A stretch of 64,000 bases of DNA. Source: Acidobacteriota bacterium. Its GTDB lineage: Bacteria > Acidobacteriota > Blastocatellia > UBA7656. The stretch covers positions 109,127-173,126 of the forward strand of contig JBBPIG010000008.1 of the NCBI GenBank assembly GCA_038040445.1, read 5' to 3'. Positions 41,543 to 61,660 of this stretch are shown piece by piece. Each line of letters opens with the position of its first letter. Position 1 is the stretch's first letter. The notes under the pieces were generated by a model that was not told the DNA's origin, searched no databases, and saw only the letters and a program-made list of their open reading frames with translations. A program made the position numbers and the translations under genes.

Positions 41543-41968
41543 ATGAAATTAGTCAAAGGTGAACCCAACGAGTCAGATTTCGGATGGATAGGTCGCGGGA
41601 TCGAAGTTAAGGGCGACATAGCATTCGCTGATCGGCTTCAAGTCGATGGTAATGTTACGGGCAAGCTGAAATCCGACAGCGGAACTCTCATAGTAGGCGA
41701 GTCGGGCCGGCTCGATGCGCAAATCGACGTCGGCGTTTGCGTAGTTCACGGAGAGCTTCACGGCAACCTAGTCGCGCGGTCCAAAGTCGAGATTCGCAGG
41801 ACCGGTCGCGTTCACGGAGACGTGGTTACGCCAGTGCTGCTAGTCGAAGAGGGCGCGGTGTTCAACGGGGCAATCAGGATGACCCAGGAAACCGGCGCCC
41901 GTCTGCTCGAAGAAGTCCGGCCGAGTGATGTTGACGCTGAGGGCCGCCGGCAAGCAAGCGGCGCATAA
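41543..41968 (+). CDS. Bactofilin-family polymer-forming protein
   Basis: A 141-residue protein; ATG 41543 follows GGGGATAG, and an ATG 13 codons upstream lacks a good site. The core is the right-handed beta-helix: EVKGDIAFADRLQVDGNVTGKL, GTLIVGESGRLDAQIDVGVCVVHGELHGNLVARSKVEIRRTGRVHGDVVTPVLLVEEGAVFNGAIRM. Bactofilins assemble into nucleotide-free filaments that shape the cell or position wall enzymes. No peptidase M23 partner is next to it; it sits alone between pyrD and pyrF. Confidence 0.9.
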   Translation: MKLVKGEPNESDFGWIGRGIEVKGDIAFADRLQVDGNVTGKLKSDSGTLIVGESGRLDAQIDVGVCVVHGELHGNLVARSKVEIRRTGRVHGDVVTPVLLVEEGAVFNGAIRMTQETGARLLEEVRPSDVDAEGRRQASGA

Positions 41969-42014: not shown

Positions 42015-42244
42015 GCGGTAGTGTCCTAATCTTGTGTTGGCCGACCAGGACACTATCAAGCGACCGCGTATTTGGACTGCGGTGGCGTCTTTGCGTTGCC
42101 ACCGCTTTCTGTCGTTTCGTGGGCGATAACCAAAAGCGGCGGCAACGCACAAAGGCCGCCGCAGTCCAAATATTCCGTCGCCCGTAATCGGGTCGTGCGC
42201 CCAGGCCACCTGCAAATATCAACACAAGATTAGGACACTACCGC
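42015..42244. mobile_element. 230-bp MITE-like element with 25-bp perfect terminal inverted repeats
   Basis: Termini 42015-42039 and 42220-42244 are exact reverse complements over 25 bp (beginning GCGGTAGTGTCCTAAT). Inside, TATTTGGACTGCGG and its complement CCGCAGTCCAAATA, and TTGCCACCGCTTT with AAAGCGGCGGCAA, make nested arms. The left end also has a local hairpin TAGTGTCCT/AGGACACTA. There is no open frame of note, so it would need a transposase in trans. No clear target duplication is visible. A degenerate copy of the left end lies at 61625. Confidence 0.85.
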
Positions 42245-42358: not shown

Positions 42359-43108
42359 ATGCTACCGGCGACGACAACCACCCCAATCCCCTCGAGCGTC
42401 AAGGACCAGCTCATCGTCGCGCTGGATGTGCCGGATCGCGACAGCGCGTTGCGGCTGGTCGAACGGCTGAGCGGCGCCGTCGGGATGTTCAAGATCGGGA
42501 GCCAGCTCTTCACCGCCGAAGGCCCACAGCTCGTGCGCGAGATTGTAACTGCCGGAGAGCGCGTGTTTCTTGACCTCAAGTTTCACGACATACCCAACAC
42601 TGTAGCCGGCGCGGTTGAATCTGCGGCTCGGCTCGGGGTCTCAATACTAAACGTGCACACCCTGGGCGGGTCGGAGATGATGCGCGCGGCCGCACACGCG
42701 GTCGGCGATCGCGGCTTGCTATGGATCACCCGGCCAGCAGTGCTCGGCGTAACGGTTCTCACGAGCATGGACAAATCCGATCTTTCCGACGTCGGGATCA
42801 CGCCGGACTTGAGCTCCGAAGTTGTACGCCTGGCCGCCCTCGCGCAGGATTCAGGATTGGACGGCATAGTCGCGTCGCCACATGAGATTCGCCTGATCCG
42901 CGAGCGCATCACAGCAGAGCGGTTCATCATACTTACACCTGGCATACGTCCGGCGTGGTCGGCGAAGGCCGACCAGAAGCGCATCGCAACTCCTGCCCAC
43001 GCGATACGCGACGGCGCCGACTTTATCGTCGTCGGACGCGCCATCACCGACAGCGCCGACCCGCGCGCCGCCGCCGAACTAATCCTTGAAGAGATCAATG
43101 CCGAGTAG
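42359..43108 (+). CDS. pyrF: Orotidine-5'-phosphate decarboxylase
   Basis: A 249-residue TIM-barrel enzyme making UMP. The family pattern is complete: LIVALDVPDRDSALRLVERL, MFKIGSQLF, catalytic FLDLKFHDIPNT (Asp-Lys-Asp), GLDGIVASPHEI, LTPGIRP and IVVGRAITDSADPRAAA. A GAGGAA ribosome site lies close to ATG 42359. It is separated from pyrD by the bactofilin gene and the 230-bp element, so the original pyr cluster may have been split. Confidence 0.94.
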   Translation: MLPATTTTPIPSSVKDQLIVALDVPDRDSALRLVERLSGAVGMFKIGSQLFTAEGPQLVREIVTAGERVFLDLKFHDIPNTVAGAVESAARLGVSILNVHTLGGSEMMRAAAHAVGDRGLLWITRPAVLGVTVLTSMDKSDLSDVGITPDLSSEVVRLAALAQDSGLDGIVASPHEIRLIRERITAERFIILTPGIRPAWSAKADQKRIATPAHAIRDGADFIVVGRAITDSADPRAAAELILEEINAE

Positions 43109-61624: not shown

Positions 61625-61660
61625 AGTGTCTAATCTCGTGTTGGTCGACTAACTAGACTC
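61625..61660. mobile_element. Degenerate end of the 230-bp MITE family
   Basis: AGTGTCTAATCTCGTGTTGG matches the left end of the element at 42015 (AGTGTCCTAATCTTGTGTTGG) with one deletion and one substitution, and continues GTCGAC where the element has GCCGAC. No other part of the element is seen nearby. It reads as an eroded remnant or a solo end, 48 bp before the next gene. Confidence 0.65.

Follow-up and report, generated by a model that had tools for sequence, protein, structure and literature searches.

Between a bactofilin gene (ending at 41968) and pyrF (starting at 42359), a 64,000-nucleotide stretch of an Acidobacteriota genome (hereinafter the window; G000:C8:109127-173126 of a 6.75-Mb host assembly in 72 contigs) contains a long inverted repeat, placed there by a first-pass annotation that took it for a MITE. 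The question is whether this sequence is a mobile element or a hairpin conserved in place and, if mobile, what moved it. As annotated, the 25 nt at 42015-42039 are the exact reverse complement (100%) of those at 42220-42244; by our own arithmetic, a perfect inverted pair of this length within about 300 bp is expected by chance about 1e-8 times per 64 kb, and a 20-mer of the terminal repeat had zero chance matches in 100 shuffles. The annotated length of 230 bp, however, does not hold. About 22 near-complete copies in the host genome share the same boundaries, and their comparison sets the element at 226 bp (42017-42242, plus strand; G000:C8:151143-151368), with perfectly paired 23-bp terminal inverted repeats (TIRs), the left one, GGTAGTGTCCTAATCTTGTGTTG, at 42017-42039 (plus strand) and the right one at 42220-42242 (minus strand); the outermost GC/GC pair, two bases on each side, is chance flank.

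Internally, the left arm (42017-42057, plus strand) consists of the TIR and an internal stretch (AGGACACTA) that repeats part of the end in inverted orientation, and matches approximately 41-bp mini-forms or solo ends elsewhere in the genome (L166, L168, L169). It is followed by a central palindrome of about 100 bp, ATTTGGACTGCGG...CCGCAGTCCAAAT (42070-42171), and a right subterminal spacer delimited by the copy alignment (42172-42219, plus strand). The nested arms that had been noted inside the element are real (42060-42108 and 42133-42181, 49 nt, 84%) but belong to a separate repeat family. No convincing gene was found within the 226 bp, only chance ORFs that cross the element, and the partial second copy reported at 61625 exists but is only a decayed left end (61625-61651, plus strand) of the same family or of an approximately 41-bp mini-form, and differs from AGTGTCCTAATCTTGTGTTGGTCGACTA by one deletion and one substitution. 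MITEs are short (less than about 600 bp), lack a transposase gene, and carry TIRs in multiple dispersed copies; all of this applies to the 226-bp element, with its perfect 23-bp TIRs and about 22 near-complete copies.

A genome search with the terminal repeat, the first of the checks proposed in the first-pass annotation, yielded many further copies: 58 TIR sites at no more than 3 mismatches, compared with 4 for the reversed control. Among the near-complete copies, 15 are 93-100% identical, several are 83-87% identical and some are partial; solo or approximately 41-bp ends and fragments are also present, and several host contigs terminate within a copy. Within the main group, individual copies depart from the consensus by about 1-6%, for the most part through private changes, and in our reading of the copy alignment the loop is inverted relative to the arms in four copies (L016, L017, L019, L022). 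Target duplications of 8 bp flank most two-ended copies, with 8/8 matches in 13 of 21 and 7/8 in 4 more (17/21 at 7/8 or better), where the chance of a match of at least 7/8 is about 4 × 10−4 per copy by our own arithmetic. Shorter derivatives have them as well (a 92-bp form, L030, with CAAGTTCA; a 62-bp form, L164, with 7/8). The four copies without a target duplication are L010, L017, L019 and the window copy itself, whose flanks, AAGACAGC and GCCCCGGC, agree at 3/8; the missing duplications may have been lost through recombination between copies or through flank change. Across some empty sites long reading frames are restored; at this GC content, frames often arise by chance.

The pyr locus was also compared in relatives. 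In G001, the sole congener compared, the order pyrD-bactofilin-pyrF is retained (84-85% amino-acid identity) and the element is absent: bactofilin and pyrF are separated by about 110 bp in which no TIR occurs, compared with 390 bp in the window. A bactofilin gene also lies near pyrF in G004, G005 and G002, where the printed gap sequences contain no TIR; the gaps are too diverged for base-level placement of the insertion. These results bear on the possibility of a conserved RNA or DNA hairpin, such as a regulatory structure, transcription terminator or attenuator of pyrF, that is not mobile at all. The location upstream of a pyrimidine gene, the very stable predicted fold (−137.8 kcal/mol, z = −12.8 compared with shuffles) and two weak terminator-like matches on the minus strand agree with such a role, but it is contradicted by the presence of the element at more than 20 sites with target duplications and by the empty site in the congener; a single copy conserved in place, which the first-pass annotation had named as the observation that would point to an RNA structure, is not what is seen. 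Among the 15 main copies, moreover, paired and unpaired columns change alike (80 substitutions in 176 paired columns vs. 26 in 48 unpaired columns), about 50 pairs are broken compared with 1 double compensation, and an Rfam search gave no match. On the substitution pattern and the lack of an Rfam match, structural RNA was rejected, and a conserved hairpin is, in our estimate, extremely improbable. Since paired and unpaired columns change alike and broken pairs far outnumber compensated ones, the stem is a legacy of inverted-repeat ancestry, with no visible maintenance once a copy has inserted.

The element is thus identified as a MITE by its multi-copy dispersal, fixed ends, 8-bp duplications, congener empty site, and the occurrence in its class of IS1-family elements with near-identical ends. 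The last of these came from a search for transposases with matching ends. No transposase-bearing element with the MITE TIR was found in the window, in line with the earlier annotation, or genome-wide within 3 TIR mismatches; the ends are shared with autonomous elements in other genomes of the class, and every such element found belongs to the IS1 family. Three elements chosen from inverted end pairs alone, regardless of transposase, each enclose an IS1-type transposase and have a perfect 8-bp duplication: L123 (3544 bp, GTCTGAGA), L124 (5180 bp, GGAATTCC) and L125 (4760 bp, AAAAAGGG). Compared with the MITE TIR, their ends agree at 19 to 21 of 22 positions, those of L124 at 21/22 and 20/22. 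Four further complete elements (L179, 2613 bp; L186, 3115 bp; L192, 2397 bp; L204, 1604 bp) were obtained without use of the MITE sequence, by a profile search of the class for the transposase followed by identification of 8-bp direct repeats and inverted ends, and match the TIR at 11 to 19 of 22 positions.

The transposases of L123-L125 and of a Planctomycetales locus (L121) are 319-344 aa long and have an N-terminal Cys motif. All four score above the Pfam DDE_Tnp_IS1 cut-off and three of the four above that of the IS1/IS1595 zinc-finger domain; with NCBIfam transpos_IS1 the scores are 78-104 bits, one of the four exceeding the cut-off of 100. This single-ORF zinc-finger IS1 type presumably resembles the ISMhu11 subgroup. 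All of L123-L125 also carry passenger genes: L124 and L125 encode N6/N4 DNA methylases that have Mrr-like domains, L125 also an HTH protein, and L123 an AAA ATPase.

Like these IS1-family elements, the MITE has ends that begin with GGTAGTG, in accord with the GGnnnTG rule of IS1-family-derived elements (PMC6807381), and an 8-bp target duplication, within the 8-9 bp characteristic of the family. Likewise, a TIR starting with GGTGGTGTTTC is carried by IS elements that are closest to ISAba3, of the IS1 family, and an insert bounded by these elements has 8-bp duplications (PMC6382973). Neither trait is exclusive, and the MITE could in principle belong to another family that makes 8-bp duplications (IS6, ISL3, IS66, IS1595 or IS256): duplications of this length are common to several families, and GGnnnTG ends, recorded for IS1, are also found in many IS6/IS26-family elements, some with 8-bp duplications (PMC6807381). 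All three elements picked by their ends alone, however, encode an IS1-type transposase, and no gene-bearing element of any family with the MITE ends was found in the host genome; we consider another family improbable. The four elements from the profile search are no test of this alternative because they were sought around IS1-type transposases.

Taken together, the element is very probably a MITE moved in trans by an IS1-family transposase, the latter being the likely mover judging by the ends. An IS1-family (DDE) transposase, of the same type as in the elements of the class, would bind the GGTAGTGTCC... ends of the gene-less element in trans and make 8-bp staggered cuts at the target, producing the 8-bp duplications. 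Smaller forms could have arisen by internal deletion; in particular, the inner AGGACACTA recurs in direct orientation at the right terminus (AGGACACTACC), and slippage between the two would leave an approximately 41-bp element.

Unlike L123-L125, the MITE has no transposase gene, and it has only the ends in common with them. Among the autonomous elements encountered, none has subterminal sequence in common with the MITE, and none could be recognised as its direct parent. A search of the host genome with a 4-sequence transposase profile found no intact autonomous element with the MITE ends; besides fragments, the relatives detected are a 240-aa remnant on C5, which has a single end-like sequence at a distance of 1.3 kb, and a 280-aa frame on C14, for which no ends could be recognised. 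Since these are only decayed or lack ends, the MITE family is probably inactive now; the 72-contig assembly leaves room for a broken-up autonomous copy.

The body of the element appears to have a different history. The core palindrome ATTTGGACTGCGG...CCGCAGTCCAAAT occurs on its own in the host genome (L158, L159, L213) and in the congener (L061), with pairing retained in the altered stem of L159, and its half-site is widespread. More generally, a family of approximately 100-bp palindromes, TTTGGACTGCGG...CCGCAGTCCAAA, occupies dozens of host sites (e.g. the same three loci), with half-site variants TATGGACTGCGGCGGC and TTTGGACTGCGCCGCC and no known mover. The element is therefore composite, its central hairpin belonging to a separate dispersed family; a short end-pair element would have acquired one of the dispersed hairpin repeats of the genome, which suggests a route whereby such a repeat gains mobility by lying between transposase ends.

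A core of this kind raises the possibility that a RAYT (Y1 HUH) transposase spread the entire element, which would then be a palindrome of the REP/BIME kind. The central hairpin does occur alone, as REP/BIME repeats do, and the host encodes Y1 transposases, with stretches of the Y1 (HUH) domain adjacent in pairs at G000:C3:210307-211085 and C4:67876-68655. The TIRs and 8-bp duplications of the whole element are, however, not products of HUH transposition, and no close match to the core motif was found near the Y1 loci examined in the host genome, so that a RAYT origin is not supported even for the core. Applied to the whole element, this explanation is highly unlikely; it may hold for the core alone. 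The likeness to REP/BIME (PMC3733652) is that of a dispersed palindrome; the core here differs in being about 100 bp long and in not being found beside Y1/RAYT genes, and the whole element in its TIRs and duplications.

The IS1-type MITE is genuine but ordinary, an individually new element of a known kind. A 187-nt Microcystis MITE is likewise a gene-less stem-loop, with about 30 copies, 8-nt duplications and ends that match an IS family, but its ends are GGCTCTTCG and it is attributed to an ISL3 transposase rather than IS1 (PMC11448079). MITEAba12 is also a non-autonomous, IS-derived bacterial MITE, from a different host group; the comparison is at the level of general type (PMC6382973). The present case is a clear one, with several kinds of evidence, from a little-studied phylum, and it names the likely transposase.

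Beyond the host, named records matching the exact 19-bp end pattern are from Acidobacteria (including Blastocatellia, Pyrinomonadaceae and Chloracidobacterium MAGs) and one Planctomycetales MAG, and 32 of the 162 Blastocatellia genomes searched contain the ends. The element was not found in PLSDB plasmids at blastn sensitivity, nor the 19-bp pattern in IMG/VR contigs. In G002, from another genus of the same family, two small elements have similar ends, L127:6241-6415 (175 bp, duplication 8/8) and L131:1134-1325 (192 bp, duplication 7/8).

The common ends also indicate that the class has larger cargo elements, up to 10.7 kb, that lack a transposase; these are the most unusual by-product of this analysis. 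A 10.7-kb element (L132:471-11156; G134:C58) is bounded by identical IS1-type ends of 24 bp and by a perfect 8-bp duplication (CGATAAAA); it contains genes for a chromate transporter, ChrB, MFS and ABC-transporter proteins and a Crp-type regulator, and tblastn detected no IS1 transposase in it. A 663-bp element (L135:3200-3862; G068:C1) has IS1-type ends, the duplication CACCTGTC and a single DUF6438 gene, without a transposase. One IS1-type end (GGTAGTGTCC...) could, a proposition on which we are evenly divided, serve a graded set moved in trans in Blastocatellia: hairpins of 41-226 bp with an absorbed REP-like repeat, a one-gene cassette of about 0.66 kb and the 10.7-kb transposase-less chromate-transport element, besides IS1-family transposons with DNA methylase genes. 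If so, IS1 would act generally as a mover of cargo in Blastocatellia. At another locus (L081:4348-4671; G005:C124), 324 bp between matching ends, without a duplication, contain an ORF of 70 aa that may represent a captured piece of a gene.
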